The notes beneath the pieces are model-generated. The model worked only from the letters and a program-made list of their open reading frames with translations. It did no database searches and was not told the origin of the DNA. The position numbers and the translations under genes were made by a program. From a virus, in the IMG/VR virus record IMGVR_UViG_3300044958_000589, positions 1-26,288 of that record: a stretch of 26,288 nt of DNA, one strand, 5' to 3'. Positions 1-23,291 of this stretch are shown in pieces. The first letter of the stretch is position 1, and each line of letters opens with the position of its first letter.

Positions 1-3000
1 TCTGACGGTCGTGCATATGGCATGGTATTTAGTCCGCAAGACACTAACGACTCTGCTCTTTCTGCAGCTGGAGGATATGGTCCGGTTGCTAATTATTATG
101 TTGACCTTTCAGAGATACCATTTGCCCCAACATTTTATAGAATACCGGGCCCAAGCATAAGTGTCTTGGATTTAGTAAGCCAGATTTGTGCTGAAACTGG
201 ATGTGATTATTATATAGAACTTTTAGTAACCTCTACAGGTCAAAAATGTATTAAAGTTAGAGTAGCTCAAAGAGCTACGCAGCCATCTTTAGGTGAAATA
301 GAACAATTTGTTTCAGCGACCGACAATGTTGTTTCAAAGAATGTTGGTAGAGAGCTTAGGAACGAACCTTCTCAAGGTTTTGTTTATGGCGGTTATGTGC
401 AAACTATATATCAGCAATCTGCAGCCTCATCACGCATTATACAATTCTGGGGATACGACTCCGCTAAAAACCTAACAATTGCTGATAATACTAGTTTAAC
501 AGGTAGAGAAGAGGGCGACTGGAAGATATATCTAGATATCAGGCCTCTCTCTGCTAGCTTGACGACTCCTATTGCAGGTAACTCTATTCCGGGATACGGT
601 TCTTATGGCTCTCACTATTTTGAAATCCATGAAAAAGAAATCAGGATGGCTATAGGTGGATATGATGAATGGTTTAACTATGCTATTGCATATAACCAAG
701 GGACAGGGACTATATTTGGCCAATGGATCAGAGGGAATTTAGATATAAAAGGCCCTAATATTCATTTTCCAGACTTCACTGGAATGGGAATTGGACCAGA
801 TGCGCTCTCAGCAGCCTTGTTGAATATGATAGGTTATAATCTAGCCTTTCAACCAGATCAAGATCCTACAGACAATAGAAATGAAGACCTTAAAAAGATT
901 CACCAATTTATTGTAGATTGGGCCGAGACATACTATGGTAAGCAATTCCTAGCACAGCTTCCTTATGTTTGTTATAGAACCGATTCAGATTCTGGTCAGG
1001 TAATATATAGCGATAACCCAACTAACGACGGTGGATGGCCTGCTCAAGGCATAACCGATGTCTTAAAACTTCCTTGTAGCACAGAGGGTCAGCCCGAAGA
1101 AAAGTTATCGTTTTTTGCAGACGAGACGAATAAAGTTACTCCCTTCTGCAGATTTTATGAGATAGGAACTGGAATAGGTTCAGGAGTTATCGTACAGCAG
1201 AGCGAATATGTAGCTCACAATGCTGGCGATGGTAGAGGTCTTTCTATATACCTTAAAGGTTCTGTTGACGAGAAGCCTCTTGAATACGGCTCATATGCTA
1301 CAGCTCTATTTAAACTTGATAGCCCAGTAATAGAAAGTGGTCTCGAAAGCGATTTAGGCGGTATAAATCCAAACTTTGGCGGCTTAATAGAAACAGCTAT
1401 AACTTCAGGTGTTAGTGGTGCAAATCTAAGTGTTCTTAAAGGCGGCTTGCAATTTAATGCAGACGGAACTAGAGGTACTGATGGGACACTTGCTATTGCT
1501 GTAAGAAGAAAGACTCCAGATGAAGTTGCTGTTCCAATGAGAAGTAATACAACTAGGTATGGGCCAATATTTAAAAAAGGGCCTCCGGGACAAGTTCACT
1601 TTGTGGCTGACGACCAGCTCGTACCTTGGGAGTATGATGGCTATTTGAATCTGATGAATGCTCCTGTTAACGCTATGTCAGAAAAAATTAAAGATGCTGT
1701 AACCTACATGCAGGAAGGTGAAAGGGGTTCTATTAACTTCCCCGGAACACCAACTAGAAGACTCGGTTCTGAGTTAAGATCTAGTCGGAAAACAATGAAT
1801 TTCATAAACATGCAAGCTAGTAGCTTCACTGCTGGCGGAGGTAATCACTCCTATAATGGAATTGTTAGCGTTCCTTGGGATGGTAGTTTTGGTCCTAATA
1901 TAACTAATATAACTGTAAACTATGGTGAGAATGGCTTTACAACAGCCTATACACTCAATACCTTTACCCCTTCTTTTGGAAAGTTTGCTAAATACAATGC
2001 TAATAGACTTTCTAAAATGGGTAAGAGAGCTCAAGAAATTAGGAAGATTCAAAGAGAAAGAAATAAACTTCAAAAAGCTTTAGCACAAGCAGAGCAAAGG
2101 GCAGCTCTAGCCAGAAAGCAGATGAAGCAGAGATCGAAGCAAAACGCTAGCAATGGAACCACAATAAAAACAGGGCAAAATGTCGAACGAAATATTGGTC
2201 CCGGTGGCTCGGGCACCTCTGCTGGTAGCGTAAGCAATACAACCCCAAGATCTCTTGCTCTAGCGAACAGTGCTCGCTGGGCTCATATGGGAGGGGTCAG
2301 TGATGATGCTTTAATGAGCGCCGTAACTCACAAAAAATCGGGCACCGACAGCAACTATGGGTATAGTTGGTCCACAGAACTCCCTCAATATGCCAGTGCT
2401 CAAGGCGTCGATTACGGAGATTGTGTAGAGCATATACAGTCGGGAGGCGGGGGACTACCTATGATACGACCCCCTGTTACGGGAAACCACCTTACCGCAA
2501 TCGGACGGGATTATCTTGATCCGTATGCTACCGCAAGAACACCTAAGAATGTTAGGGATGGAGTCGATCCAGAGAGCTTCCATTGTGGGCATGAAGTAGT
2601 CTTTCATGGACAGGTTCCTCCGGGACCTCAGAGTCTTGAGGCATTCAAAGATGCTTCTGGACACTTTCCAGAAAACTTGAGAATGATGGCCCACAAAGGG
2701 CCTTTGCTTCTTCACGGATGGGGCTATGACCTAGAAGGAAAGCCTATACCCAACGACGCAGACACCGAGGCAGCCGCATCGGGAGGCGCGTTCACAAACG
2801 AGAAACTCACAAACTACTTTCCATCAGGATGGCTTCAAAAGCCCCATACTTGGCCAGTGGCCCCAGTGGATTTAAGATATGATAGAGCTAGAAATGTTTG
2901 GTCTCAACCTATTCAATACAGACTTATGCAGGCCCATAACACAGGGGTTGCTATTTCAGGGGGTTATTCGGGAACCTCCGTTCCCTTAAGTTCTAAAATG

Positions 3001-6000
3001 ACAGAGCTAACAGATGAGTACGGAGAAACAATACTGGACCCTCAGCTATCCATAAAAGTTCCTGACTGGATGGACCCTATTAAGTCGGGCGAAAAGTATT
3101 GGACTATGTATGATTCAGCAGACTGTTGTTATTATCCTATAACTGTTAAACCCTCAATAACATGGGAATCAAACCAATCTGGTGAATGCGTTACTACTGG
3201 TCTTGCCATATCTGGCAGTTTCACTGGAATTAACTTTAGATCTGGTCTGATAGTTACTGTTGATAGCGGAGATCCAGCTAAGATACATGTTGACGCAAGG
3301 ACAAGAATTAGTGGAGGATTTAGAGGAGAGTGTTCTGGCGGCGACACCGATTTACCTCTTTTTGAGAACTTTAGAAATATAGCCTTTGGAACAGGGCTTG
3401 TAATAGATACTCTTCAAGATGACTGCACTTATCAGATAAGCGCGAATCCTTCTCTTACTTGGAATTCCACTAACAGCTGTCTTCCTTATGACTCCGCAAA
3501 TGGAAAGTTTTCGCAGATTCACTTTAGATCGGGTCTAACAGTAGAAGAAGATTCTGATAACTCATGCCTTATACATGTAGACGCCAAGACAAGAATTATG
3601 GGCGGTATGACCGGATGTAGGCCCGGAGTTAATTATCAGATCAACGATTGGGACTGGTATAGGAGTCTGCTTGTAGGTTCCGGATTAAAATTAAAACAAA
3701 ACGTAGCTAAGTGTGAATATGAGATACAGGGAATTTTGCCGGAGCTGCGTGGGTACGGACCATTTGATTCACTTAATTTTGGAACCGGACTTACAGTCAC
3801 ACCAAGCGTAGCCGATGATTGTGATTATGACATTAATGTCAATTTCTTCATTAAGGGTGGAAACACGGGCACGGGATGCGGTGATATTTCCAGTGGAGTG
3901 CTAACTTATGAACCATATACCAAACTGAACATAGGAAGTGGCCTCTCACTAGCCAAAGTAGATACTGGTATATATTCATTAGATTTGGCTTCAGGAACAA
4001 GATTATTCAACGGCAGTGGATTTGGCAATATCATACCTCGGAGTGGATTAACTTTTACAGCTCATCACGGTTCTTGCGACTTCTTCCTAGATGCTTTGGC
4101 TATAAGTGGTGGTTCTACAGGATGTGCCGACACAGCTGACCAGATAACTTCTCCTGTTAGCGTTACTCAACTTCAAGTCACTGGAAACGGCCTTAAATTA
4201 GAAGACTTAGGCAGTGGCACTATTGCTCTTTCACACGCTCCTCACAGAGCATTGTTTAGTGGATTTGAATATGGTAACATTACACCTCGAACTGGTTTGA
4301 GCTTTGTCAGAACTCAAGACGGGCAAGACTGTGACTGGTATCTAGATGGCCTAGCTATAAAAGGAGGAAGGACTGGTTGTGATGATACTAATGATGAAAT
4401 AGCTAGCTATCTTAGCGTTACAAGACTTAAGGTTACTGGGAATGGACTGCAGTTAAGAGACGAAGGTGCTGGAGAAGTATCTCTTGGCTTGTCTGAGCAG
4501 AGGGCTCTGTTTAGCGGATATGCGTTTGGCAATATAATTCCTCGGAGTGGTCTCAATATGGTAGCCGCTGAAGGCGGTACAGACTGCAATTGGTATCTTG
4601 ATTCTGCCTCCACTACAGGAAGAATTATGGGCGGTATGTCTGGGTGTAAGCCCGGAACAAATTATCAGATCAACGACTGGAAAACTTATAAGGACTTGCT
4701 TGTAGGTTCTGGCCTAAAGTTAGTTGAGAATACAGAAAATTCTCAGTATGAGATACAGGGGATATTGCCGCACTTAAAGGGCGCTAACAGTTGCGGTTAT
4801 CACACGACTCCGGGAGGGCCATTTGATTCCCTTAATTTTGGAACCGGATTTGAAATCATAGCAAGCCCAAGCGAGTACTGTGACTATGATATCAATGTCG
4901 GTATGTACATTAAAGGTGGACGAACCGGATGTCATGATTCTAGTGATGAAATAGCAGCCTATAAACCATATACAAAACTGGAAATAGGAAGCGGTCTCCA
5001 ACTAGGCGAAGTAGATGCCTGTACATATTCATTAGATTTGGCTTCGGGAACAAGATTGTTTAGTGGTATTGCGTTTGGCAATATCATACCTCGAAGTGGC
5101 TTGAGCTTTGCCAGAACTGAAGGAGGACAGGACTGCGATTGGTATCTTGACTCAACAGCTGGTGCTTTATACGCAGGACATAGCGGCACATGCATGAGTT
5201 CAAATGCTGCTGGGTGCGTAGACACCATTAATGCAATAGGCACTTTCAATGATCTTAATCTGATTATGGGCAAGGGTATCACAGGGGTTAATACCGCTAT
5301 GAATGATGCTCAAAGAACTGCTCTTGGTTTTCAGGGAGGTAATGCCCTTGAAATAAGAACAAGACTTCCTATAATGATACAGCCTGATGACCAACATGCA
5401 ACAGGCGATGCTACTACCGATTGTATCATAGACTGGGAACAGATCAAATTCCCAGAGAATCAGTTTACTCTCTTCGAAGGTCATACATCTGGATGTGATT
5501 ATGTAACAGTTTCAGGAAAATTCGGCAGTGTTCAAGACCTTGTTGTAGGAGACGCATGTACGCCTCAGTTCCACTGGAAAAATTCAGAGCCTTGTAGTGG
5601 CTTCGATTGTTTAGCTTTTGGAACCGGACTCTCAGTTGATGATATGGGAGGTGGTAAGTTCCGTATTGATGCATCCGTTGCGCCTCGATTCGCTAATGCA
5701 ACCGCTTGTAATACTAACGCTTACAGCCAAATTCCTAATCCAACAAGTGACAGGTATCAAAAAATTACCTTTGGAACTGGTCTTAAAGCTGGAGAATATG
5801 ATTCAACAAAACCATGCGAGATCACACTTAACAGCACTTTCTCTGTAAAGGGAGGAATGACAGGTTGTAAACCTAACGGAACGAATGAGACAATTAGTGC
5901 TAGTGTAGGTGGAGCTGTCACTGAAACCGCTCAACTACTTCACTTTAGTGATGGCCTCAAAGTGACCAGAACTGCTACTGGGTGTGAATATAAAATAACT

Positions 6001-6879
6001 GCACCTCAACCAACGATAAATACTCAGACATTTGATAATATAACTCTTGGAACCGGATTGTTGCTTAGAGAAATATATCAAGGCGATGGAGTGCAAGAGG
6101 ACTGTGACTACACCCTTGATGTTAATATGCTTCTTAAGGGTGGTATGACTGGATGTAAACCAGTAGGAACTAACTACACCTTTACTAACTATATACCGTT
6201 TGATCAAATTGTTGTTGGAAATGGACTCAAGGTCGCAGGTAGCAATGGAACCTATACTTTATCTGCACCTCAACCAGAAATAGGCGGCAATATATTTGAT
6301 GATATAGAAATAGGTACTGGGCTGTATCTACAGTCTACGGATGGGTATTGTGGGTATAAACTTAATGTAGATCATCAAATTAAAGGTGGAATGACAGGCT
6401 GTAAGCCGGGTTCTGCCTATTCATATCCAAACAATAGCGTTTTTGAAAATATAGTTGTTGGAGATGGACTTAAACTTGCAGTGGGAGGAACTACAGCTAC
6501 ACTATCGGCTCCTCAGCCTACGATAGGTGGTAATATATTCGACTCACTTACGGTTGGTTCAGGTTTAGAGCTAGTAGGTAATTCAGAATATTGTGATTAT
6601 ACAATTAATAGTAAACTCAAGTTCTTTAGTAGCTGTGACGGAGGAGGCCATCAACTTGGAAGTGATAGGATAGAAACAGTTACTCTTGGTCCCGGATTGA
6701 GCGGAGTAGGATCATCTAACAGTGTATCTATCACTCTTGATAAAACAGCATGTAGCGGAGCGCCAACTAAAGTAGACGTTGTTAGGGGAATAACTTGTGT
6801 AGGTTCAGGATTTGAAGTGCAAATGAAAAGACTGTATTTTACTTCAGAGGGACTATTCATAGGGTCAGAAAACATATAA
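1..6879 (+). CDS. Giant repeat-rich phage virion (tail/fibre-type) protein, 5' partial
   Basis: The reading frame is open from base 1, and the ATG at 22 has no ribosome site before it, so the true start lies upstream. Residue numbers below count that ATG as 1. At least 2285 residues are encoded. Residues about 38-80 (IPGPSISVLDLVSQIC, then a tyrosine-rich stretch) look to me like a tail-hub-type domain; this is weak. Residues about 652-710 are a charged Lys/Arg/Gln-rich probable coiled coil. Residues about 945-961 (WPVAPVDLRYDRARNVW) resemble a segment I recall from large phage structural proteins. From about residue 1045 to the end there are roughly 26 short beta-type units centred on G-x-G-L, alternating with I-K-G-G-x-T-G-C turns. 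About 41 cysteines lie in this half, against about 8 before it. It is probably a tail tip, baseplate or fibre component. It ends just before another cysteine-rich gene whose ribosome site overlaps its stop codon. Structural role is likely; exact position in the virion is unknown. Confidence 0.75.
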   Translation, partial: SDGRAYGMVFSPQDTNDSALSAAGGYGPVANYYVDLSEIPFAPTFYRIPGPSISVLDLVSQICAETGCDYYIELLVTSTGQKCIKVRVAQRATQPSLGEIEQFVSATDNVVSKNVGRELRNEPSQGFVYGGYVQTIYQQSAASSRIIQFWGYDSAKNLTIADNTSLTGREEGDWKIYLDIRPLSASLTTPIAGNSIPGYGSYGSHYFEIHEKEIRMAIGGYDEWFNYAIAYNQGTGTIFGQWIRGNLDIKGPNIHFPDFTGMGIGPDALSAALLNMIGYNLAFQPDQDPTDNRNEDLKKIHQFIVDWAETYYGKQFLAQLPYVCYRTDSDSGQVIYSDNPTNDGGWPAQGITDVLKLPCSTEGQPEEKLSFFADETNKVTPFCRFYEIGTGIGSGVIVQQSEYVAHNAGDGRGLSIYLKGSVDEKPLEYGSYATALFKLDSPVIESGLESDLGGINPNFGGLIETAITSGVSGANLSVLKGGLQFNADGTRGTDGTLAIAVRRKTPDEVAVPMRSNTTRYGPIFKKGPPGQVHFVADDQLVPWEYDGYLNLMNAPVNAMSEKIKDAVTYMQEGERGSINFPGTPTRRLGSELRSSRKTMNFINMQASSFTAGGGNHSYNGIVSVPWDGSFGPNITNITVNYGENGFTTAYTLNTFTPSFGKFAKYNANRLSKMGKRAQEIRKIQRERNKLQKALAQAEQRAALARKQMKQRSKQNASNGTTIKTGQNVERNIGPGGSGTSAGSVSNTTPRSLALANSARWAHMGGVSDDALMSAVTHKKSGTDSNYGYSWSTELPQYASAQGVDYGDCVEHIQSGGGGLPMIRPPVTGNHLTAIGRDYLDPYATARTPKNVRDGVDPESFHCGHEVVFHGQVPPGPQSLEAFKDASGHFPENLRMMAHKGPLLLHGWGYDLEGKPIPNDADTEAAASGGAFTNEKLTNYFPSGWLQKPHTWPVAPVDLRYDRARNVWSQPIQYRLMQAHNTGVAISGGYSGTSVPLSSKMTELTDEYGETILDPQLSIKVPDWMDPIKSGEKYWTMYDSADCCYYPITVKPSITWESNQSGECVTTGLAISGSFTGINFRSGLIVTVDSGDPAKIHVDARTRISGGFRGECSGGDTDLPLFENFRNIAFGTGLVIDTLQDDCTYQISANPSLTWNSTNSCLPYDSANGKFSQIHFRSGLTVEEDSDNSCLIHVDAKTRIMGGMTGCRPGVNYQINDWDWYRSLLVGSGLKLKQNVAKCEYEIQGILPELRGYGPFDSLNFGTGLTVTPSVADDCDYDINVNFFIKGGNTGTGCGDISSGVLTYEPYTKLNIGSGLSLAKVDTGIYSLDLASGTRLFNGSGFGNIIPRSGLTFTAHHGSCDFFLDALAISGGSTGCADTADQITSPVSVTQLQVTGNGLKLEDLGSGTIALSHAPHRALFSGFEYGNITPRTGLSFVRTQDGQDCDWYLDGLAIKGGRTGCDDTNDEIASYLSVTRLKVTGNGLQLRDEGAGEVSLGLSEQRALFSGYAFGNIIPRSGLNMVAAEGGTDCNWYLDSASTTGRIMGGMSGCKPGTNYQINDWKTYKDLLVGSGLKLVENTENSQYEIQGILPHLKGANSCGYHTTPGGPFDSLNFGTGFEIIASPSEYCDYDINVGMYIKGGRTGCHDSSDEIAAYKPYTKLEIGSGLQLGEVDACTYSLDLASGTRLFSGIAFGNIIPRSGLSFARTEGGQDCDWYLDSTAGALYAGHSGTCMSSNAAGCVDTINAIGTFNDLNLIMGKGITGVNTAMNDAQRTALGFQGGNALEIRTRLPIMIQPDDQHATGDATTDCIIDWEQIKFPENQFTLFEGHTSGCDYVTVSGKFGSVQDLVVGDACTPQFHWKNSEPCSGFDCLAFGTGLSVDDMGGGKFRIDASVAPRFANATACNTNAYSQIPNPTSDRYQKITFGTGLKAGEYDSTKPCEITLNSTFSVKGGMTGCKPNGTNETISASVGGAVTETAQLLHFSDGLKVTRTATGCEYKITAPQPTINTQTFDNITLGTGLLLREIYQGDGVQEDCDYTLDVNMLLKGGMTGCKPVGTNYTFTNYIPFDQIVVGNGLKVAGSNGTYTLSAPQPEIGGNIFDDIEIGTGLYLQSTDGYCGYKLNVDHQIKGGMTGCKPGSAYSYPNNSVFENIVVGDGLKLAVGGTTATLSAPQPTIGGNIFDSLTVGSGLELVGNSEYCDYTINSKLKFFSSCDGGGHQLGSDRIETVTLGPGLSGVGSSNSVSITLDKTACSGAPTKVDVVRGITCVGSGFEVQMKRLYFTSEGLFIGSENI
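3592..4092 (+). repeat. Long internal duplication, copy 1
   Basis: This segment, from the codons for R-I-M-G-G-M-T-G-C to those for F-F-L-D, is repeated about 1.03-1.06 kb downstream at 4621-5151. Shared landmarks in the same order include NYQINDW, LLVGSGLKL, YEIQGILP, GPFDSLNFGTG, YSLDLASGTRLF and FGNIIPRSGL. DNA identity is high in patches, for example around 3630 and 3985. It is a block duplication of about six repeat units rather than a single unit. Confidence 0.85.
4621..5151 (+). repeat. Long internal duplication, copy 2
   Basis: Second copy of the block at 3592-4092. It differs by a short insertion near 4784-4812 that carries an extra cysteine (N-S-C-G-Y-H) and by scattered substitutions. 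The stretch between the two copies (about 4100-4620) contains two further related modules ending in FGNI(I/T)PR(S/T)GL, so that motif occurs four times between 4020 and 5110. Confidence 0.85.
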
Positions 6880-8691: not shown

Positions 8692-9432
8692 TTATTTACC
8701 TCCGGTATCAAATGTTTCACGCCAGTTTGAATCGTAACCTAATACATCTTCTGGGATGATTGAAGGGTTACGCTGGTATTCGGACAGAGATGATAGAATC
8801 ATTCTTCCCTGCAGGTTGCTGACAGCCCGAACTGACTCAGCGCCAGCACAGGAAGATTTAACAGCCTTTTCCAAATTAACATCAAGTCGCTTACACATCT
8901 GATTAATGGCTAGAATTTGTTGATCTGTGATATTCTCTTCAGCTGCGAGAAGATCGTCCTCATCGGAGTTTTGCATCTCTTCTGCGGTAACAACTCTAAT
9001 CTTCAGAGCTCTTCGGATAGCTTTACCTTCAGCTCTAGTATCTGCTGTAGCAACCAAGTGTTGGTTGAAAGGGTGTGGAATATTGCTTCTATTAACATCT
9101 ACACATCCGTCTACAGTTATTATATCGCCCGTAGAGTGTTTTCGTATCTGTAAAGTATGCTTAATTGTGCATACTCCACGAGAAGTATCATGATTATAAA
9201 TGTGACTTGATGATGTAATAATATCACCAAAGACCTCTTCTGTAACTCTACGCAAGCCATCTACTGTAGGATTTCCATCGCGCAGCTCACTATCGTCAAG
9301 ATGGTCTAAAACATATTCGCTCCATCCGGGATTATAAGGCCCAATTGCTTGATCCTCAGAACCTTCTGCAGCTTCAGCAATTTCTTCCTCTACGTCCATT
9401 ACAATTTGATCTAGATCGCTTTTCTTATTCAT
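8692..9432 (-). CDS. Putative Rad52-like single-strand DNA annealing protein
   Basis: 246 residues. The core (about 50-150) reads N-P-T-V-D-G-L-R-R-V, a series of beta-type segments, then H-P-F-N-Q-H-L-V-A-T-A-D-T-R-A-E-G-K-A-I-R-R-A-L (120-143). The A-x-A-(D/E)-T-R-A-x-G-(R/K)-A-(L/I)-R signature is typical of Rad52/Erf/Sak-type phage annealing proteins. The C-terminal part (I-T-D-Q-Q-I-L-A-I-N-Q-M-C-K-R-L, about 168-183) resembles the small helical tail domain found after many such cores. The N-terminus is acidic. Proteins of this kind coat single-stranded DNA and pair complementary strands during phage recombination and replication. The gene overlaps the endonuclease gene upstream by 4 bases (ATGA). 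I am fairly confident of an annealing role, less so of the exact family. Confidence 0.6.
   Translation of the reverse strand: MNKKSDLDQIVMDVEEEIAEAAEGSEDQAIGPYNPGWSEYVLDHLDDSELRDGNPTVDGLRRVTEEVFGDIITSSSHIYNHDTSRGVCTIKHTLQIRKHSTGDIITVDGCVDVNRSNIPHPFNQHLVATADTRAEGKAIRRALKIRVVTAEEMQNSDEDDLLAAEENITDQQILAINQMCKRLDVNLEKAVKSSCAGAESVRAVSNLQGRMILSSLSEYQRNPSIIPEDVLGYDSNWRETFDTGGK
8698..8703 (-). promoter_or_regulatory. Shine-Dalgarno GGAGGT deciding the start at 8690
   Basis: GGAGGT on the - strand, 7 bases before the ATG at 8690 and inside the end of the upstream gene. It favours the shorter, non-overlapping form of the zinc-finger protein. Confidence 0.8.
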
Positions 9433-10223
9433 ATTTCTATATACCTCTTATTTTCCTCGGGAAACTTTTTCTCAATCCTGTCTATAACCTCAAGCAACTC
9501 ATTCAGTACAGTTCTCATGTATCTGTTTGAGATCCTCTTAGTCTGTTTAATTCTAATCAAAACAAGTCCTTGTTCCAATACTAATCCTGTCTTTTCTAAG
9601 TCAGACCGCTGATTCTTTATTAAGTTCTCCTCACCCCAAACAGGTTCAAAATGAGAAGGGCCATCTACTTCTATTACTGTCCTGAGATCCTCTATAAAGA
9701 GGTCTGTTTCGAGATTTTGGTTTTTAAGCCACTGCTCTCTATGAAATTGTACCTTATATTTCCTCTTTGTTAGCTCACTAAGTATAAATTTTTCTAATTT
9801 AGAACCCTCCCTAGATGCTCTCCGTATAGCGTCACTCCCCTTGGCGATGATGTCCTTTTTCTGCGAGTCGGTTTTTTTCTCCCAAGATTCTCGACCTAGC
9901 TTAGATCTTTTTGCCCTTTCTTTGTCACTAAGACTGTCCCAAACTTTACCTTGACCATCGCTAATTTTTATTCTAGTTTCTTCACTCCTCTGAGTTCCTT
10001 CTGTTGGATGGTCAGATCTTCCTTGTTTAAGAGCTACCTTCTGAGCTTGGCTTTTGTCTCTAGAGTCTATACCAAGTCTCTTAGCTTCTCTGCGAACCTT
10101 ATTTGGATATGTAGAAAGCTCCTTAGATATGGCTATCCAGCTCATATTTTTATCATAATAAGACTTTTTCAAATATGCCTTTTTCTGAGTGTCCGTTAGA
10201 TTTCGATATTTTTCTTCGTTCAT
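9429..10223 (-). CDS. Free-standing homing-type endonuclease (HTH + NUMOD-like + Vsr-like nuclease)
   Basis: 264 residues, strongly basic. Residues about 24-52 (M-S-W-I-A-I-S-K-E-L then K-V-R-R-E-A-K-R-L-G-I) form a helix-turn-helix. Residues about 65-118 (S-E-E-T-R-I-K-I-S-D-G-Q-G-K and related) look like a NUMOD3-type DNA-binding segment seen in phage homing endonucleases. Residues about 140-230 look like a Vsr/EDxHD-type nuclease domain: S-K-L-E-K-F-I (E144), then L-E-T-D-L (D174), V-I-E-V-D-G-P-S-H (E185, D187, H191) and V-L-I-R-I. Such enzymes cut a specific site in DNA lacking the gene and so spread it. No intron or intein surrounds it here. It shares 4-base overlaps with genes on both sides (9429-9432, 10220-10223), tight for a mobile gene. 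Its ribosome site is weak, suggesting coupled translation. Confidence 0.65.
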   Translation of the reverse strand: MNEEKYRNLTDTQKKAYLKKSYYDKNMSWIAISKELSTYPNKVRREAKRLGIDSRDKSQAQKVALKQGRSDHPTEGTQRSEETRIKISDGQGKVWDSLSDKERAKRSKLGRESWEKKTDSQKKDIIAKGSDAIRRASREGSKLEKFILSELTKRKYKVQFHREQWLKNQNLETDLFIEDLRTVIEVDGPSHFEPVWGEENLIKNQRSDLEKTGLVLEQGLVLIRIKQTKRISNRYMRTVLNELLEVIDRIEKKFPEENKRYIEI

Positions 10224-15384: not shown

Positions 15385-17024
15385 TAAGCTTTCTCTTTCC
15401 TTTGGTATGCCTCTTTAATAAAATCATCAACAATCATATCCTGTCTTCCCGTCCTGATTTGCTCTACAAGGAACTTGTTCTTTGCTTTGTTTGTTATTAT
15501 ATTCCAAGCAATATCTTCGTTAAATTGCTCTAAGGTCTCAGCATGAGCTCCTAAGCAGATCGACTGAATTAGTTCTGTTGCCTCGTAGGAATATGCTGCC
15601 TTTGGATCTCGAAGCACAGCAGAAAAGCACCATCTTACAAAAGCTTCAGGAGTTAAGCCTTGAGGGCGAGCTTCAGGAATCTGAATATGCTGATAAGGAT
15701 ATGTTTCATATTGACCTTGAGCCCCTGTGGAAATATAATTATCTATATAATTCTCCCATACCTTAGCTGTCCTATCCCAGTCATATCTTTTTAACGTAGC
15801 ATTTCTTACCTGAGCCATTTTCTTATTTCTATCTTCTTCAGACATAGAGAAGTAGTCTATTAAGATTTGAGCTGTATGCTCGTTATCCGGCCTCGCTCTA
15901 TCAGCTCCAGTTTCTAACTCTCTATACAGTCTATATTTTATAGGATAGCCTTCTGTAAGTCTTACAACATCTTCCATAGCACTGTAATTAACAGCAGCTA
16001 CAGGAACACCGCATGCAGCAGCTTCGACTTGAGGCATCCCAAAACCCTCACATATAGCGTATTGGATGTACATATCTAATATGTTATATACTTTTATTAA
16101 GTCAGGTATCTCTAACCCAAACCCTACACTAGGCATGACTGCTCCTCTTTGATTACAATGAGGGCATGTTGTTATTGCATCCTGATACTTTAGGCACGAA
16201 AATTTTCCACAAGCTTTGCACATGTATGTAGATAGGACTTTTTCTTGCAATCCGAATTCTTGAATTCCAGCAGTAATATCCCATCCTGTTTTTTCCGGAT
16301 AACTTGTGTGTAAATATAAAAAAGTTTTTTCCGCAATCTCTTTAGGGGCTTTCTTTAAGAATATTTGAAAAGCCTTCATGAGCTCAAAGAAAAGTTTTCT
16401 TCTTTGGTTTCTCATGACTGTCCCAAAGATGTTTATATCTGGATCAATGCCTAGCTCTTTTCGTAAGGTTTTTTTATTAGGAACTGGTTTGTATACACTT
16501 GGGTCTATAGCAGGAGAGGCACATCCTATGACGTTTAGTTTATCATTAGACTGCTCAAGCAAAACCTTCTCTCCATATTCAGAATATGCTAAAAGAGCAT
16601 CAGGCTTTCTGAAATTTTCCATCCATTTTGTTTTTTGTGGAGCAGAGTCTACAGTTGGCATCCACGCCCAGTGGAAAAATGGTCTTACCGCAGAGTCTCC
16701 TACCCACTGGTCCATCCAAGGATCTCTATAGGTAAGAACAATGTCGGGCTTAAAATTTAAAGCTACATTGTCAAACCTCCAGTAACCAAAATGATTGAGC
16801 GGGGATTGGTTATATGTTTGGTGATCCTTTTCCGTTTTAGGCATGTTAGAAAAAAACAACCAATCAACATTCGGATTCTTTTCCATGTGCGCATAGGAGG
16901 CAAACTCAGCAAGCTCATACTTCCCTGTGGCATGCAGTCTAGGCAGTACTTGCTTAGCATAGGTTCCAAAGCCGGAGGCAACCTGATGAGATTCAGTTAC
17001 AAAAAGCACTTTTTTCTTACGCAT
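15384..17024 (-). CDS. Large GT-B glycosyltransferase with an inserted zinc-ribbon motif
   Basis: 546 residues. The N-terminus (K-V-L-F-V-T-E-S-H-Q-V-A-S-G-F-G-T-Y-A) is the glycine-loop start of GT4-type enzymes. Residues 197-212 (N-I-F-G-T-V-M-R-N-Q-R-R-K) form the donor-phosphate loop. Residues 326-340 (E-G-F-G-M-P-Q-V-E-A-A-A-C-G-V) are the donor signature. Between them lies C269-x2-C272 ... C287-x2-C290, a four-cysteine zinc-ribbon pattern not usual in this family. A C-terminal extension of about 100 residues beyond the normal end (after Y-I-S-T-G-A-Q-G) is of unknown role. It overlaps the sigma factor gene by 8 bases. The zinc motif could aid acceptor recognition or oligomer assembly; this is inference. 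Confidence 0.75.
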   Translation of the reverse strand: MRKKKVLFVTESHQVASGFGTYAKQVLPRLHATGKYELAEFASYAHMEKNPNVDWLFFSNMPKTEKDHQTYNQSPLNHFGYWRFDNVALNFKPDIVLTYRDPWMDQWVGDSAVRPFFHWAWMPTVDSAPQKTKWMENFRKPDALLAYSEYGEKVLLEQSNDKLNVIGCASPAIDPSVYKPVPNKKTLRKELGIDPDINIFGTVMRNQRRKLFFELMKAFQIFLKKAPKEIAEKTFLYLHTSYPEKTGWDITAGIQEFGLQEKVLSTYMCKACGKFSCLKYQDAITTCPHCNQRGAVMPSVGFGLEIPDLIKVYNILDMYIQYAICEGFGMPQVEAAACGVPVAAVNYSAMEDVVRLTEGYPIKYRLYRELETGADRARPDNEHTAQILIDYFSMSEEDRNKKMAQVRNATLKRYDWDRTAKVWENYIDNYISTGAQGQYETYPYQHIQIPEARPQGLTPEAFVRWCFSAVLRDPKAAYSYEATELIQSICLGAHAETLEQFNEDIAWNIITNKAKNKFLVEQIRTGRQDMIVDDFIKEAYQRKEKA

Positions 17025-17469
17025 TCTTTTCTCTTATCTTTCTTATAGCTTTATAAAATATTCTCTTAACATACGAACTTGTTCTTCCTGTTATGTTGGC
17101 CATTTCAGCAAGCTTATAACCCATCTTTCTAAGCTCTAAAAAATGCATCTCTTCTTCAGAGAGAATACTCGTAGGCAAGACCTCCCAAAGTTCATCTTTT
17201 ACATTATAGAAAGGGGGAGAAACTACACTTAAAGAAGTTCCCCTTCCTTTCTTGATACTTTTTATTTCTTTAATTATTTCCCAACGTATAGGATTCCAAG
17301 CGTATGTAGAAAGAACAGCCCCTCTATCCGGGTTGTATTTCCTTAAAGCCTTCCATAATCCTATTCTTCCAGCCTGTATATAATCATCGCGCTCGGTATA
17401 ATTCTGAGGCTTAAATGAGTTGACGACTGAAACGACCAACCCCATGTTTTTTTCAATTAGATCATCCAT
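17017..17469 (-). CDS. Small sigma-70-type RNA polymerase sigma factor
   Basis: 150 residues. Residues about 5-72 match sigma region 2: N-M-G-L-V-V-S-V-V-N-S-F, then D-D-Y-I-Q-A-G-R-I-G-L-W-K-A-L-R-K-Y-N and S-T-Y-A-W-N-P-I-R-W-E-I. Residues about 103-148 match region 4: L-S-E-E-E-M-H-F-L-E-L-R-K-M-G-Y, then a helix-turn-helix (K-L-A-E-M-A-N-I-T-G-R-T-S-S-Y-V-K-R). Region 1.1 is missing and the linker replacing region 3 is short, as in compact phage and sporulation sigma factors. It should bind host core RNA polymerase and steer it to phage promoters, probably the late virion genes. The ribosome site is AAGGAAAAGGG directly before ATG. It sits 29 bases after the polymerase back-half gene. Confidence 0.8.
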   Translation of the reverse strand: MDDLIEKNMGLVVSVVNSFKPQNYTERDDYIQAGRIGLWKALRKYNPDRGAVLSTYAWNPIRWEIIKEIKSIKKGRGTSLSVVSPPFYNVKDELWEVLPTSILSEEEMHFLELRKMGYKLAEMANITGRTSSYVKRIFYKAIRKIREKNA

Positions 17470-17498: not shown

Positions 17499-19133
17499 CT
17501 AACTTGTTAGCTGTTCTACCTTTTTTATTAAAAAACTTCCCCTATTCTTGTCCTTCATCCCTCTCATAAGCACTGTGTTACCTTCGTGCAGCATTTTCTT
17601 GTATTTTTCCCACTCCTCTGAGAAGGCTGTAACGCTATCTAAAGAGCAGCTAGTATCGCTAACGGTAACAAAACCCATCTTCATACCTTTTGCCTTACCT
17701 TTTTTTATCGTCCACTCTCTAACCGAGTCTATCTTGACAGCAAGGACTATGCCTTTTTGTGAATTGAAACCGTCAATAAATTCTTTACATGTGCAGTTGG
17801 CTCTACTAGTGTCATATTCATCCACCTTGTTGCAAGTTAGAGAAATCCCAAGAAGTTCTTCTTCTACCCTTGAGACCCAAGACGGTGAATCATATAGATC
17901 ATATCCCGGATTGTCGTAAGTTGTAAGAAGATCTTCTATGGCTGGAATTCTAGCCTGTCTAAATATAGGTCTAGTTTTTGATTTTACCTTAGAAGCCTCT
18001 ATCATGGCTTCGATACAGTTGATCGCCGTCTTCTCTGGATAGCTTTCTTTATAATTTTTAAGCCACTCAGTCTCTCTTTTTGTGAAGTCCTTTATCAAAT
18101 TAAAATGATGTTGCATCTTAGACCGAGATATTTTAAAACAGTCGAATACGCCAGCCAATATCAATGACTCAAAAGCCTTTTTGTTTACAAACGGCGCTAT
18201 AAGCAAAAGAAAACAATCCCAATCACATGTTTCTAAATCTATATTATTTTCTTTTACATGTTTCATCATTTTCCTAAATACAGAAGACCCAACATTTTTT
18301 ATGTTTGTCATACCATATGTAGGATTTTTACCTATGAGCTTAAACTCTTCATTCATGTGAATGATATTAGGAGGCAGGACTTCTATTCCCATAATCTTTG
18401 CATTGTTTACAAGCTCATTAACTTCCCAAAATGTATCAGGCTTGCCAACTGCATTTTTAAGATATGCAGTAAAAAACTCATGAGGGAAGTGAGCCTTGCA
18501 GTATGCGGTTAGATAGGCATTGTACGCGTAACTAACTGAGTGCGACTTATTAAAAGAATATCTTTGAGACTTCTCAATCCAACTAAATATTTCCTCTGCT
18601 TGCTCTTTGGTAATGATACCTTTGTCGGCAGTCCCTTCTAGAAACGACTTTTTAACCTCGGCCATTACGTCCGCTTTCTTCTTACCAATAGCCTTTCTTA
18701 AGATGTCTGCTTCCTGTAAGTCAAACCCAGCTATTTCCGTAGCTATTAGAATTGCCTGTTCTTGATATACTAAGATACCCTGAGTACTCTTAAGGATGGG
18801 TTCTAGAGAGCTATGCAGATATTCTATAGGTTCACGAAAATGCTTGCGGTCAATATAATGCATTGTGAGACTTTTGCCTTTGACCATAGCTTCTAAACAT
18901 CCCGGCCTCATAATTGCAATAAGGTCGGATAGCTCTTCCATATTTCTAGGCTTAGTCTGTTTAGCTAATGATCTACCTAGCTGAGACTCAAGCTGAAAGA
19001 CACCCTTGGTGTTTCCTTCGCAGATCAAATCCCAAGTAGAAGAACAGTTTAGTGGTATAGATGTGATCTCTGGGTCAAATATTAAACCGCTTTCTCCTTC
19101 ATGGAACTCACATCCGCAGTCATATCTTCTCAT
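17499..19133 (-). CDS. dnaE: DNA polymerase III alpha subunit, back half (fingers, HhH, OB fold)
   Basis: 544 residues that align by motif to the second half of bacterial DnaE. Residues 26-50 contain I-P-L-N-C-S-S-T-W-D-L and G-V-F-Q-L-E-S, and R-P-G-C-L lies at about 76-80. Y-Q-E-Q-A-I (123-128), I-G-K-K-K-A-D-V-M (149-157) and F-N-K-S-H-S (194-199) mark the fingers. A C-terminal stretch (about 450-540, including G-I-V-L-A-V-K-I-D-S-V) looks like the OB fold. The tau-binding tail of cellular DnaE appears absent. It contains none of the three catalytic Asp, which lie in the other half, so it must assemble with that product. Its ATG overlaps the stop of the exonuclease gene (ATGA, 19130-19133), with AAGGAG 10 bases upstream. 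Together the two halves total 1164 residues, close to the 1160 of E. coli DnaE. Confidence 0.9.
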   Translation of the reverse strand: MRRYDCGCEFHEGESGLIFDPEITSIPLNCSSTWDLICEGNTKGVFQLESQLGRSLAKQTKPRNMEELSDLIAIMRPGCLEAMVKGKSLTMHYIDRKHFREPIEYLHSSLEPILKSTQGILVYQEQAILIATEIAGFDLQEADILRKAIGKKKADVMAEVKKSFLEGTADKGIITKEQAEEIFSWIEKSQRYSFNKSHSVSYAYNAYLTAYCKAHFPHEFFTAYLKNAVGKPDTFWEVNELVNNAKIMGIEVLPPNIIHMNEEFKLIGKNPTYGMTNIKNVGSSVFRKMMKHVKENNIDLETCDWDCFLLLIAPFVNKKAFESLILAGVFDCFKISRSKMQHHFNLIKDFTKRETEWLKNYKESYPEKTAINCIEAMIEASKVKSKTRPIFRQARIPAIEDLLTTYDNPGYDLYDSPSWVSRVEEELLGISLTCNKVDEYDTSRANCTCKEFIDGFNSQKGIVLAVKIDSVREWTIKKGKAKGMKMGFVTVSDTSCSLDSVTAFSEEWEKYKKMLHEGNTVLMRGMKDKNRGSFLIKKVEQLTS

Positions 19134-19801
19134 CTAGCAAAAGCTCCTTTGAACTTACCTACAGTTGATTGTCTTCTGTGAAACTTCATAAACTTAACAA
19201 GCAGTTCGGCTTCGTCAATAGTATCAGATAATGCCTCGTGAGCTTGTGCTGCATTCATGCCCAAGAACTTTCTAAAGGCATCTAGCTTCATACTACTAGG
19301 CTCATCTAAGTTTTCGAACCACATAAATAGAATGTCCATCATGTCTATTTTAGTTACTTTAGAGAACGGTGATTTTGTCTTGTATTTTTCTGCAAGACGA
19401 TTGGCAATAACCAAGTCAAATCCTATGATATTATAACCAGAAGGAATAGGTTCTGTATACCACTGTCCGGGCTTCTTATCAACCTCATACTTTGAACAGT
19501 AGTTACAAAAGTTTTTCCAAACTACCTTTTCGCTTTGACCAGTCTTCCAGTCCTTAACTATATCTTCTGTTTCAACGCCTCTTTGTTTAGCATGCCAAGC
19601 AATAGTGTCTTGCCTTTCCTTTGTGAAATATTCTTCACTGTCTATTCCGTCTGGCCTAATGGTTGCTCGAAATGCCTGCTCCTTTTTAATTTCTAAGGTT
19701 CTTGGATTTACAGGTATGGCAGCAAGCTCCACTGGGTTACATGTCTCTGGATTTGGGCTGTCTGTTTCCCAGTCAAATACTATGATCCATCTATTATTCA
19801 A
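19130..19801 (-). CDS. DEDDh 3'-5' exonuclease (DnaQ/epsilon-like) inserted between DnaE halves
   Basis: 223 residues with all motifs of the DEDDh exonuclease family: F-D-W-E-T-D (D10, E12), G-Y-N-I-I-G-F-D-L (D129) and A-H-E-A-L-S-D-T (H188, D193). Such enzymes remove mispaired 3' ends using two metal ions. The setting makes it the likely proofreading partner of the split polymerase. The start codon is TTG at 19801: no in-frame ATG precedes the catalytic D10, and AAGGAG (19809-19814) stands 7 bases before the TTG. It lies 30 bases after the front-half polymerase gene and overlaps the back-half gene by 4 bases, so all three are probably made from one transcript in fixed order. Confidence 0.9.
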   Translation of the reverse strand: MNNRWIIVFDWETDSPNPETCNPVELAAIPVNPRTLEIKKEQAFRATIRPDGIDSEEYFTKERQDTIAWHAKQRGVETEDIVKDWKTGQSEKVVWKNFCNYCSKYEVDKKPGQWYTEPIPSGYNIIGFDLVIANRLAEKYKTKSPFSKVTKIDMMDILFMWFENLDEPSSMKLDAFRKFLGMNAAQAHEALSDTIDEAELLVKFMKFHRRQSTVGKFKGAFAR

Positions 19802-19808
19802 TTTTTAG

Positions 19809-19814
19809 CTCCTT
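19809..19814 (-). promoter_or_regulatory. Shine-Dalgarno AAGGAG supporting a TTG start
   Basis: AAGGAG on the - strand, 7 bases before the TTG at 19801. It is the main evidence that the exonuclease begins with the rare start codon TTG, which may lower its output relative to the polymerase halves. Confidence 0.75.
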
Positions 19815-19831
19815 TTATTCTTACCATCTAA

Positions 19832-21694
19832 TTATACTCCCATAAGTATTTTAGGAATCTCCATAACTTTGTCAAGCATCTTAATTCCAAGAACATCTAA
19901 TTTCAGAAGACCAGCATCTTCGCAGCTAGGCCCTTCGAACCCAGCTAGAAGGTCTTTTTCTTCTCTATCCAAAACCATAGGGCACACATCGTATATTGGC
20001 TGTGGGGAAACCACAACTCCTGCCGCATGTTTAGACTGAATGATTTTAGTGTCTTCTAGTCTTATCGCTTGTTCAAATATTTTTGCAAACTTACCTTGCA
20101 GATTTCCATTATCATCTACATAGCACCAGTCTTTTAGTTTGTCAGATTTATTTTCTAAAGCCCAAGAGATAACCGAGGAAGTTCCAAGTTCATCTCTCAT
20201 GTCCTGTAGCTCGTCAGCAATTTTTGATTCATCTAGTAGGTGGGATGTAATAGCATTTTGCTCATCAAAGCTAATGTTACCACGAGCAGCCATAACTCTT
20301 TTAAGCGCAGCTCTGCCCTTCAGTGTTTGGAAGGTAATGATTTGCGCTACATTGTCTTTGCCGTACTTCTTTTTAATGTAGCTGATTATATCTTCACGCC
20401 CACACTTAGGAACATCAATATCAATATCGGGCATAGACACTCTACCACCCGCATTACGGCCAGCATTGTAGAACCTCTCAAAGATAAGCTCGTATGGAAT
20501 TGGATCAATTTTAGTTATATCCATTAGATATGAAACCATGCATCCTGCAGCACTTCCACGACCGGGCCCAGTTAAATAGCCTTTAGAATCAGCGTACTTA
20601 AGAATATCTCTGACGATTAGAAAGTAACTAGATAGGTTTGTTTCGGTGAAAATCTTAATCTCTTTATTTACCCTTGAACCATAAGCATCAAACATATCAT
20701 GATTCTTATCAATATGATCCATCTTTTCTGTCCATCCCTCACGGCACAAATATCTAAGATAATCGTTTGGAGACATTCCATTCGGACAGTCAAATACAGG
20801 CGGATTAGGAGGGCCTAGAATATTATATTCACTACACATACTTGCGATTTGCAGAGTAGAGTCTAGTTCCTTATCTGTATGGAATCTTTTCATATCCTCA
20901 TAGCTTGGAATATGATAATTATCTGACTCAAAAAATGCTTTAAGTGACTTAGATTTACCTTGTTTTAATTCACTTTGTATTTGACCAATGCTTTTTCTCA
21001 TAGCCGTGCAAAGTAAAACTCTTTGGTCGTGAGCGTCTTCTCGTCTACAATAGTGAGCATCGGGCGTGGCAACGCAAGGAATTCCAGTTATCTCAGAGAC
21101 CTCTCTTAGCTTCTCGGCTACTTCTTTTGCTTCTTTGTTTATTAAAGAATCAATCAGTTGTATTTCTATATAGAAATTGCCTTTACCAAAAGCCCCTTGC
21201 ATCCTCTCGGCTTCTCTAGCTCCATCTTTTTTCCAGTTCGGATTGTCAATTACAGTATTTGCAAGGTGAGATCCAAGATGTCCACTGAATGATACTAGCT
21301 TACTAGACTGCGATACGCTTTCAAGAAAAGTGTCGAGACCTACTCTTGGCTTGTGATAAAAGTGTTCTGGACTATTTGACTCTGAAACTAGGGACAGTAG
21401 TTTCTTCCAACCTTCAAGATCCTTTGCTAAGACTACCTGATGCATTAGTTTTGCGTTGCTTGGATCTTTCAAAGTAGCTTCTTGTTTTGAAAGGTAAAGC
21501 TCACAACCAAGTATTGGCTTAAAACCGTTAGAGATTGTCTTGTGAAAATCTACCGCACCTGAAACAGTCCCATGATCTGTGAGCGCACATGCGTCTACCT
21601 CGATTTGTTCAAGTCGGCTTGCTATATGTTTTGTTTGTGAGAGTCCGTCTAATAGAGAGTACTCGCTATGGACATGGAGTGGCACATATTTCAT
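19832..21694 (-). CDS. dnaE: DNA polymerase III alpha subunit, front half (PHP and palm domains)
   Basis: 620 residues from the ATG at 21694. This ATG overlaps the upstream stop as ATGA; an in-frame TTG at 21709 is less likely. The PHP domain begins H7-V-H9-S-E-Y-S-L-L-D-G, then A-L-T-D-H-G, P-I-L-G-C-E-L-Y, S-G-H-L and P-D-A-H-Y, so most metal-binding positions seem kept. The palm includes G-P-G-R-G-S-A-A-G, M-P-D-I-D-I-D-V (421-428; D425 and D427 as the likely catalytic pair) and L-K-L-D-V-L-G (D600 as the third). The protein stops 20 residues after D600, just where the fingers would begin in an intact enzyme. The rest of the polymerase is encoded after the exonuclease gene. All catalytic acids are in this half, but primer-template and nucleotide binding need the other half. 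Confidence 0.92.
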   Translation of the reverse strand: MKYVPLHVHSEYSLLDGLSQTKHIASRLEQIEVDACALTDHGTVSGAVDFHKTISNGFKPILGCELYLSKQEATLKDPSNAKLMHQVVLAKDLEGWKKLLSLVSESNSPEHFYHKPRVGLDTFLESVSQSSKLVSFSGHLGSHLANTVIDNPNWKKDGAREAERMQGAFGKGNFYIEIQLIDSLINKEAKEVAEKLREVSEITGIPCVATPDAHYCRREDAHDQRVLLCTAMRKSIGQIQSELKQGKSKSLKAFFESDNYHIPSYEDMKRFHTDKELDSTLQIASMCSEYNILGPPNPPVFDCPNGMSPNDYLRYLCREGWTEKMDHIDKNHDMFDAYGSRVNKEIKIFTETNLSSYFLIVRDILKYADSKGYLTGPGRGSAAGCMVSYLMDITKIDPIPYELIFERFYNAGRNAGGRVSMPDIDIDVPKCGREDIISYIKKKYGKDNVAQIITFQTLKGRAALKRVMAARGNISFDEQNAITSHLLDESKIADELQDMRDELGTSSVISWALENKSDKLKDWCYVDDNGNLQGKFAKIFEQAIRLEDTKIIQSKHAAGVVVSPQPIYDVCPMVLDREEKDLLAGFEGPSCEDAGLLKLDVLGIKMLDKVMEIPKILMGV

Positions 21695-22236
21695 TTTACT
21701 AGTTCCCAAATACTTTCATGTAATTCTCGTATAGGTAAATTATACATGTCAACATGAGTTTTAAAATTATTTCTTTTGTCAATTTTACCACTTTTCCACA
21801 ACTTTGCCATATTCCAGTAGTCACATGCTCCCATAAAACCACATAGCCAAATTCTTTTTAAGCCGTAATACTTCCTAGGATGCTCCTTGGTTGCTCTTTC
21901 AAATTCAAGACTTATGAAGGCATATATGTCCGGCTGCTGATGCTTGCTGGTCTTAGCTACAGATACGTCGTAGTGAGGTCTAGGAGAAACGGTTCTTCTC
22001 TTTGTTTTGACTTCTATTCGATGTCCATCCTCCAGCAACAGGTCGTGATTATATTTATCGAGACCTCTATTATTGCTAACTATGTCAGCACCTATATGTG
22101 CAGCTAGAGCCTCTTCGCCTAAATAGCCAGCGAGATTACCAGCGCCTCTTAGTATGGAGTTATTGATAGAGCCTAGAGACTTTGCCTTTAACTTAGCACT
22201 CTCTATCATCTCTTGAGAAAAGGCTAATGATATCAT
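21691..22236 (-). CDS. PD-(D/E)XK nuclease-like protein
   Basis: 181 residues. G-Y-L-G-E-E-A-L-A-A-H-I (37-48, E41), Y-N-H-D-L-L-L (62-68, D65) and R-I-E-V-K-T-K-R (73-80, E75 and K77) are the spaced E...D...E-x-K residues of restriction-type nucleases. A tryptophan/cysteine-rich segment follows (I-W-L-C-G-F-M-G-A-C, 129-138). It sits between the RecB-like nuclease and the polymerase, with ATGA overlaps on both sides, so it is probably a DNA-processing enzyme of the replication-recombination apparatus (for example end trimming or branch cutting). The precise substrate is unknown. Confidence 0.65.
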   Translation of the reverse strand: MISLAFSQEMIESAKLKAKSLGSINNSILRGAGNLAGYLGEEALAAHIGADIVSNNRGLDKYNHDLLLEDGHRIEVKTKRRTVSPRPHYDVSVAKTSKHQQPDIYAFISLEFERATKEHPRKYYGLKRIWLCGFMGACDYWNMAKLWKSGKIDKRNNFKTHVDMYNLPIRELHESIWELVK

Positions 22237-23291
22237 ACTTCACCCGGAGCTTTATATTTTCCGATTACATGATCTGAAGCCATAAGGTTTTGAGTAACCC
22301 ATTCTATTCCATTCTTTTCTATCATATATTTTGTTTGCTCACACTTAGTCATATACTCTCCATATTTAGATACGGCTCCGAAACGACGCTCTATTAAAGG
22401 ATCGACATCCGTATCCTCAAATGTAGTTTTACCTGAAGAGCAGAGCTTGCGGCATTTCCAGCTTTTATTAAGCTGTGGACATTCTGTATCCTTAATTAAT
22501 TCATATTTTTTTCGAATCATCTCTAGAGTGATAGGTATGTCGCTATCTTGAAAGTGTATAGTAAACGCTCCTCCATCATTCATAAAATGTATAGTGACTA
22601 GGAAAGTATCTACATCTGGATAGAGCTTCTTAGCAGCAAGATGATACATTCTAAGCTGAATGTCCTTCTGTAGTTTTGCTGGTGTCTTTTGCTTTCCCGT
22701 CGCCCAGTCCAGCCGCTTACCAGTTTTCCAGTCGATTATCTCGTATACATTATCTCCAACGTCTGTTATCAGGTCTATAGTGCCTTTAAGAGCTAGATTA
22801 CCTTTGAGCTTTGTTCCATCTGCGAGTTCGTACTCGTATTTTGCCCATTCCTCATCTATCTCAAAATCAAAGTGGGGTTCGGCATCTACAACAAGTCTGT
22901 TCTTTGGATCAAACATTCCATTGTCATCATCGAATATTTTCCAGACCCATTTCCGACAGTGCTTCAGATCTAAAGGCTTCCAATCATGATGAGAGGTTCT
23001 AGAGGTGTAATACTCATAGACTTTATCTATAATTTCATCGAGATATCCTGCATCATAATTAGCTGTCTCAATTTCACCAATTTCGTGGTCGTTGAATGTT
23101 TCAAAGCCCTCCTGCAGAGCCTTTTTGCATAAAGCAGTTAGTTCGAGAACTTTGTGGACTATTGTTCCTTTGTCTGCTTTTTTACCAGATGTCCCTCTCC
23201 AGCCTAGAGTGTACTCCATGTAATATTGCATAGGGCACATCCTATGGCAATTAAACGAGCTGCTTCTGAAATAGACTATTGGGATTCCCAT
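22233..23291 (-). CDS. RecB/Cas4-family PD-(D/E)XK exonuclease with Fe-S-type cysteines
   Basis: 352 residues. S-S-F-N-C-H-R-M-C-P-M-Q-Y-Y (11-24) is the entry motif of the RecB/AddB/Cas4 family. G-T-I-V-H-K-V-L-E (42-50, H46), L-K-G-T-I-D-L-I (168-175, D173), Y-E-I-I-D-W-K-T-G (183-191, D187 and K189) and K-D-I-Q-L-R-M-Y (209-216) are the successive nuclease motifs, including the Q-x-x-x-Y helix. Cysteines C15/C19 near the start and C271, C280, C284 near the end match the one-plus-three arrangement that holds a 4Fe-4S cluster in AddB and Cas4. It probably resects DNA ends to give single strands for the annealing protein. No CRISPR array or other Cas gene is present. A weak AGGA ribosome site precedes ATG. 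Confidence 0.8.
   Translation of the reverse strand: MGIPIVYFRSSSFNCHRMCPMQYYMEYTLGWRGTSGKKADKGTIVHKVLELTALCKKALQEGFETFNDHEIGEIETANYDAGYLDEIIDKVYEYYTSRTSHHDWKPLDLKHCRKWVWKIFDDDNGMFDPKNRLVVDAEPHFDFEIDEEWAKYEYELADGTKLKGNLALKGTIDLITDVGDNVYEIIDWKTGKRLDWATGKQKTPAKLQKDIQLRMYHLAAKKLYPDVDTFLVTIHFMNDGGAFTIHFQDSDIPITLEMIRKKYELIKDTECPQLNKSWKCRKLCSSGKTTFEDTDVDPLIERRFGAVSKYGEYMTKCEQTKYMIEKNGIEWVTQNLMASDHVIGKYKAPGEV

Follow-up and report, generated by a model that had tools for sequence, protein, structure and literature searches.

A large group of uncultured tailed phages encodes the alpha subunit of DNA polymerase III in two proteins. In the member analysed here, whose 26,288 bases make up an entire IMG/VR virus record (hereafter, the window), the front half of alpha, a DEDDh exonuclease gene and the back half lie in tandem on the minus strand. 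Judging from sequence evidence, we consider it likely (probability of about 0.83) that the two chains assemble without splicing into a working alpha subunit and that the exonuclease serves as its proofreader. The features that bear on this reading are as follows.

22233-23291, minus strand: PD-(D/E)XK exonuclease of the replication module (family match)
21691-22236, minus strand: 181-aa gene immediately 5' of the front half, overlapping its start (ORF)
19832-21694, minus strand: front half of DNA polymerase III alpha, 620 aa, with PHP, palm and thumb (Pfam, AF2)
20420-20428, minus strand: palm catalytic D423 and D425 (PDID), invariant in alignments
19895-19897, minus strand: third palm catalytic aspartate, D600, invariant in alignments
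19809-19814, minus strand: ribosome-binding-like AAGGAG shortly 5' of the exonuclease TTG start (sequence)
19130-19801, minus strand: complete DEDDh (DnaQ/epsilon-like) exonuclease, 223 aa (RNase_T)
19144-19148, minus strand: ribosome-binding-like AGGAG for the back half, within the 3' end of the exonuclease gene (sequence)
17499-19133, minus strand: back half of DNA polymerase III alpha, 544 aa, with fingers, HhH and OB fold (Pfam, AF2)
19110-19118, minus strand: CxC (C6, C8) in the new N-terminus of the back half (row comparison)
19044-19046, minus strand: C30 of the back half, an Asp in intact relatives (row comparison)
17017-17469, minus strand: sigma-70 region 2 protein, 3' of the split polymerase (family match)

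Upstream of the front half, on the same strand, a replication module runs in the order DnaB-like helicase fragment, Toprim primase, dNMP kinase, PD-(D/E)XK exonuclease and 181-aa gene. Downstream of the back half come the sigma-70 region 2 protein and then a glycosyltransferase, also on the minus strand. Only 30 bp separate the stop codon of the front half from the TTG of the exonuclease, and the exonuclease stop overlaps the ATG of the back half by 4 bp (ATGA). The three genes are probably arranged for separate translation from a single message. A scan between them was uninformative as to transcription: it gave one terminator-like site, on the opposite strand, and promoter-like sites no more often than expected by chance. 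No family was found for the 181-aa gene in a family search; by eye, look-alikes of it sit between the front half and the exonuclease in three relatives (L134, L143 and L145).

The front half matches the Pfam families PHP and DNA_pol3_alpha, the latter over the full profile, and the back half matches DNA_pol3_finger and HHH_6. By sequence and fold, the split polymerase is a DNA polymerase III alpha (DnaE, C-family) in two-chain form, having a PHP domain, a Pol beta-like palm with three aspartates, and fingers. It departs from DnaE in being spread over two ORFs with a whole gene between them, the single polypeptide being a usual feature of the family and not a catalytic one. All three catalytic aspartates are on the front chain, and they are invariant in 38 aligned front halves and in 58/58 dereplicated split rows. 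When profiles were compared with solved DnaE structures, the two halves matched neighbouring segments; in Mycobacterium tuberculosis DnaE1 (5lew), for instance, the front half matched residues 3-591 and the back half residues 604-915. AlphaFold (AF2) models built from the 38-sequence alignments had mean pLDDT values of 91.8 (front) and 91.7 (back). Structurally, residues 1-620 of the front align with M. tuberculosis DnaE1 8-607 (5lew, Z 42.2; 7pu7, Z 35.1) and residues 12-540 of the back with 605-1099 (7pu7, Z 21.0); on E. coli alpha (5fku), the front covers 4-575/576 and the back 572-1074. Because the halves map end to end onto one DnaE chain, the cut lies at the palm-fingers boundary. The OB fold forms the C-terminal end of the back half, with no domain beyond it. 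Thus the coordinates and Pfam domains uphold the initial annotation, which had described an alpha subunit split around a complete exonuclease gene.

That annotation had also placed the end of the front half 20 residues after D600 and seen no loss of sequence at the junction. Both points are correct. The front stop codon falls 20 residues past D600, the back half has 43 residues ahead of G-V-F-Q, and the distance from D600 to G-V-F-Q is 63 residues, compared to ∼49 in an intact sister enzyme (L240). The surplus corresponds to the N-terminal CxC element of the back half.

The exonuclease matches the RNase_T profile just above the cut-off, and this match together with the D-x-E, D and H-x4-D motifs identifies it as a DEDDh exonuclease. 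Its active site residues (D10, E12, D129, H188 and D193) are invariant in 27/27 homologs, down to 30% identity. Sequence comparison with the PDB gave weak matches only. A search of genome contigs returned chiefly unrelated clostridial nucleases and one relevant match, L167, a short contig within a Flavobacteriales MAG. The locus differs from fractured genes with a homing endonuclease at the break in that the occupant here is a DEDDh exonuclease. In one relative (L093), an endonuclease-like ORF adjoining the exonuclease was seen by eye.

Searching relatives for the same break, as the initial annotation had suggested, revealed that it recurs. IMG/VR scans with each of the three proteins returned dozens of loci sharing this gene order, at identities between 100% and ∼49-60%. 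In a profile scan, the best 80 back-half relatives (down to ∼41%) likewise showed front, exonuclease and back as separate ORFs in that order. Over all scans we counted at least 126 distinct split loci in which both halves could be seen, a number that is not a census, because each scan contributed its best 80 and duplicate removal was approximate. The exonuclease lies between the halves in 124 of the 126. Across loci, the distance from front to exonuclease ranges from a small overlap to 1.6 kb, and that from exonuclease to back extends to ∼1 kb; small unrelated genes also enter these gaps. All members found are environmental contigs. Against near relatives, the polymerase halves gave dN/dS values of 0.019-0.045 and the exonuclease 0.003-0.007 (pairs with estimable dS). 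Each of 29 large records, of up to 224 kb, contained exactly one palm match, and no second palm or intact dnaE was detected elsewhere in any of the records searched, these 29 included. The possibility raised in the initial annotation, that the split is a sequencing or assembly artefact with an intact dnaE elsewhere in the genome, thus finds no support in the records examined. A search of 17 records of the group turned up no gene for a sliding clamp. For contrast, we inspected the best 80 phage DnaE loci near another, intact query: 73 were intact and seven were broken elsewhere, while none was broken at the palm-fingers boundary and none carried the embedded DEDDh exonuclease.

To place the split, we built a tree of 86 DnaE sequences, in which all split rows formed one clade (SH-aLRT 100) beside the intact phage enzymes L240 and L252. 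By eye, these intact sisters have their dnaE in the same neighbourhood as the split phages, with the gene order DnaB, primase, PD-(D/E)XK nuclease, dnaE, SSB, sigma factor and glycosyltransferase. No exonuclease adjoins their dnaE, and the sole RNase_T match in L240 is ∼45 kb away. Using the sister enzymes as queries brought in further intact relatives, along with three split relatives whose break holds different cargo. In L307, the halves are 1 kb apart and enclose a macro-domain-like ORF and a uracil-DNA glycosylase-like gene; in L324, seven genes, mostly methyltransferase- or glycosyltransferase-like, occupy 5 kb; and in L337, the halves are separated by ∼12 kb of mostly glycan-related genes (contents judged by eye). 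There is no exonuclease between the halves in any of the three, and L324 has no RNase_T match in 113 kb. In a second tree, the cargo-split relatives were sister to all exonuclease-split rows (bootstrap/SH-aLRT, 100/100), and the two lineages together formed one clade with the same support. Since all split rows fall in a single clade, the split arose once; and since one lineage carries other genes at the break, the split is independent of the exonuclease. The data are compatible both with later entry of the exonuclease into one lineage and with its loss from the cargo-split lineage. Uracil-DNA glycosylase-like genes occur in the break of both lineages (L307; L091, L092 and L163; ∼31-40% identity), making such a gene a candidate early occupant.

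The CxC element is found in both split lineages and is missing from the intact relatives and from an exonuclease-split subclade with a shortened PHP region. It is present in the cargo-split rows. Among exonuclease-split rows, CxC is accompanied by C30 in 37/58, and Asp30 without CxC is seen in 15/58. Position 30 is an Asp in most intact enzymes and also in most rows that lack CxC. Together, CxC and C30 may form a small metal-bound cap where the back half now begins.

Changes are also evident in the PHP domain. The nine metal positions read HHDHEHCDH in 3/3 cargo-split rows, 4/6 intact sisters and 9/11 other intact enzymes. In the exonuclease-split lineage, the Cys is replaced by His with the other eight residues kept in 35/58 rows, a few more rows have one or two extra changes, and the subclade with the shortened PHP region has lost the site entirely; none of the exonuclease-split rows listed retains the canonical nine. 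The His in place of the Cys may still bind metal. These data suggest that the embedded DEDDh exonuclease took over proofreading from the PHP nuclease, and they favour a functional link of the exonuclease to the polymerase, with physical binding being putative. One caveat here is that two intact sisters (L301 and L304) also have a degenerate PHP site, and hence PHP degeneration occurs outside the exonuclease-split lineage as well.

How might the halves become one enzyme? Cyanobacterial DnaE is also encoded by two genes, with a split intein located before FNKSH, and protein splicing joins the halves. The phage break is at a different site, the palm-fingers boundary, and FNKSH is unbroken at residues 194-198 of the back half, as the initial annotation had noted in arguing against a split intein. 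We rejected a split-intein DnaE on these grounds and because Pfam detected no intein and the ends are too short: the front stops 20 residues past the palm Asp and the back has ∼20 extra residues, leaving only ∼20 aa of additional length at each new end. No Rfam intron family was found in the window, and the 30-bp gap and 4-bp overlap leave no room for an intron or intein at the break. Hence, even with split-intein precedents in cyanobacterial DnaE and phage PolB (PMC6892783), joining by protein or RNA splicing is highly improbable. Still less credible is a decayed or mis-assembled gene, for which nothing speaks beyond the split itself. Recurrence across many IMG/VR contigs excludes an artefact, and the >120 distinct loci, the strong purifying selection and the invariant catalytic residues count against decay. 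The earlier proposal of two unspliced chains is thus supported by the anatomy, the lack of intein or intron, and the recurrence of the arrangement under selection.

According to the two-chain reading, the N-terminal chain would supply the PHP domain, the thumb and all of the palm, including the three aspartates, and the C-terminal chain the fingers, HhH and OB fold. The chains would be made separately from neighbouring genes and would join non-covalently at the natural palm-fingers interface; join they must, because the active site is on one chain and the fingers are on the other. Translated between the two, the DEDDh exonuclease would be the proofreader of the split polymerase, having probably replaced the PHP nuclease in the exonuclease-split lineage. 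The split itself goes back to a single event in the ancestor of the group, in an intact dnaE of the same gene neighbourhood, and in one of the two daughter lineages the exonuclease is the fixed occupant of the break. Assembly, polymerase activity and exonuclease binding are what we infer from these comparisons. An alternative is an obligate three-chain enzyme in which the exonuclease bridges both chains at the break, for assembly as well as proofreading. The exonuclease does stay put in 124/126 loci while small unrelated genes around it vary, and dN/dS indicates stronger constraint on it than on either polymerase half; however, operon inheritance alone could preserve the order, and the cargo-split sisters have no exonuclease between their halves (in L324, none by RNase_T in 113 kb). 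Because that lineage lacks an exonuclease at the break, the chains presumably assemble without one, and with halves up to ∼12 kb apart, linkage is not required for assembly. We therefore regard the three-chain enzyme as unlikely. The same improbability attaches to the more specific proposal that proofreading moved from PHP to the exonuclease within an obligate alphaN-exonuclease-alphaC core, the exonuclease touching the palm/fingers seam and the Cys-rich N-terminus.

A quite plausible alternative, though one to which we give somewhat less than even odds, is that an ancestral gene insertion fractured dnaE, the resulting halves could still fit each other, genes later gathered at the break as they would in any intergenic gap of a phage, and the position of the exonuclease reflects co-expression only. 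It is compatible with the two-chain reading and disputes only a special role for gene order. Many unrelated genes (uracil-DNA glycosylase, exonuclease, glycan genes) occupy the break, the glycosylase-like genes are shared between lineages, and in other phages dnaE is broken at different places, in some cases with endonucleases. Against it, the exonuclease alone is near-universal in its own lineage, PHP changes accompany it, and no refusion of the halves was seen among the 126 loci. Two claims of the initial annotation need qualification in this light. That the exonuclease is fixed between the halves is true of 124/126 loci and not of the sister lineage, where other genes fill the break; that its placement suits co-assembly of alpha and epsilon may hold but is weakly supported, given the cargo-split lineage, in which no exonuclease lies between the halves.

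Split phage polymerases are already known, and they include another split Pol III alpha (PMC7824862). In group 2.2 jumbo phages, a minimal Pol III alpha is divided into NTP-binding and DNA-template-binding proteins, encoded by distant genes alongside a family B replicase, and the authors read it as a model of an ancestral form (Iyer et al. 2021, PMC7824862). That alpha is a minimal module without other Pol III domains, whereas ours is a full alpha with PHP and OB fold; its two genes are adjacent, in one neighbourhood, they encode the only palm found in the records, and they derive from an intact gene. In Rossellomorea phage phiT1 (PV767480), DnaE is cut at the same palm-fingers boundary in neighbouring genes (gp20-gp19-gp18). 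However, a 49-aa ORF and no exonuclease lies between its halves, and on the tree its split has an independent origin. PolC of low-GC Gram-positive bacteria resembles our locus in having a proofreading exonuclease within the polymerase coding region, but there it is a domain inside PHP, in one chain, rather than a separate gene between palm and fingers (PMC3919608). Aeromonas phages 25 and 44RR likewise have a replicase of two chains, in their case a family B polymerase (PolB), with an untranslated spacer or homing endonuclease at the break and no functional partner. The gp43A and gp43B proteins of phage 25 are reported to co-purify and polymerise (Petrov et al. 2010, in PMC2988022), a precedent that supports the two-chain reading by analogy. 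Within the literature covered, which is incomplete, we found no account of this clade or of its palm-fingers cut, nor of the PHP change or an exonuclease fixed between halves of Pol III alpha.

The catalytic subunit of a bacterial-type replicase is thus stably encoded as two chains, cut between palm and fingers, in a deep phage clade, and the split is old enough that the halves now lie from <1 kb to ∼12 kb apart. Intact sister, cargo-split, exonuclease-split, and exonuclease-split without a PHP site together make a natural series for testing directly whether proofreading passed from PHP to DEDDh, and the group offers a two-part Pol III ready-made for biochemistry.

Among relatives of the split Pol III alpha locus, the small-gene content of the gap between the front gene (encoding the PHP, palm and thumb) and the DEDDh exonuclease gene varies by subclade, and includes the following:

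59-aa family, containing RVSCCK
75-aa family, containing NIDDAVNKFLELK
zinc-ribbon-like ORF, 36 aa
SET-like ORF
uracil-DNA glycosylase-like gene

The halves of the polymerase vary as well. In a subclade comprising loci L111, L123, L124, L127, L128, L130, L134, L136 and L138, with further members up to L162, the front is shortened to ∼520–555 aa, its PHP metal site is gone, and the back half (fingers, HhH and OB) lacks the C6/C8 element (CxC) at its new N-terminus. Fronts of the cargo-split sister lineage (L307, L324 and L337), which has other genes at the break, are ∼780–814 aa long and carry an insertion of ∼100 aa immediately N-terminal to the PDID palm motif. Two ORFs make up the front half at loci L095 and L137, and these may represent frameshift errors or additional fractures.

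The gene order front–exonuclease–back is also seen in L167, a 3.6-kb contig of a Flavobacteriales MAG (SZUA-1004) that has a separate intact dnaE of its own. The presence of L167 in this MAG is a weak hint of the host, or else contamination.

Further ORFs in the window include the following:

22–6879, + strand, 2285-aa ORF, no family match
9429–10223, − strand, HNH/homing-endonuclease-like ORF, away from the split polymerase

Searches of Pfam and PHROG returned zero matches for the former, which is possibly a structural protein.

In some other phages, dnaE is broken at other sites. HNH or other endonuclease genes are responsible for fractures at or within the fingers in Bacillus phage vB_BauM_KLEB27-3 (L207) and Alicyclobacillus phage MMB025 (L165). 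In Tenacibaculum phage Larrie (L203), Bacillus phage Jayan (L209) and loci L212, L217 and L238, the break falls immediately upstream of the PDID motif, and this position is a second recurrent break site in phage DnaE genes.
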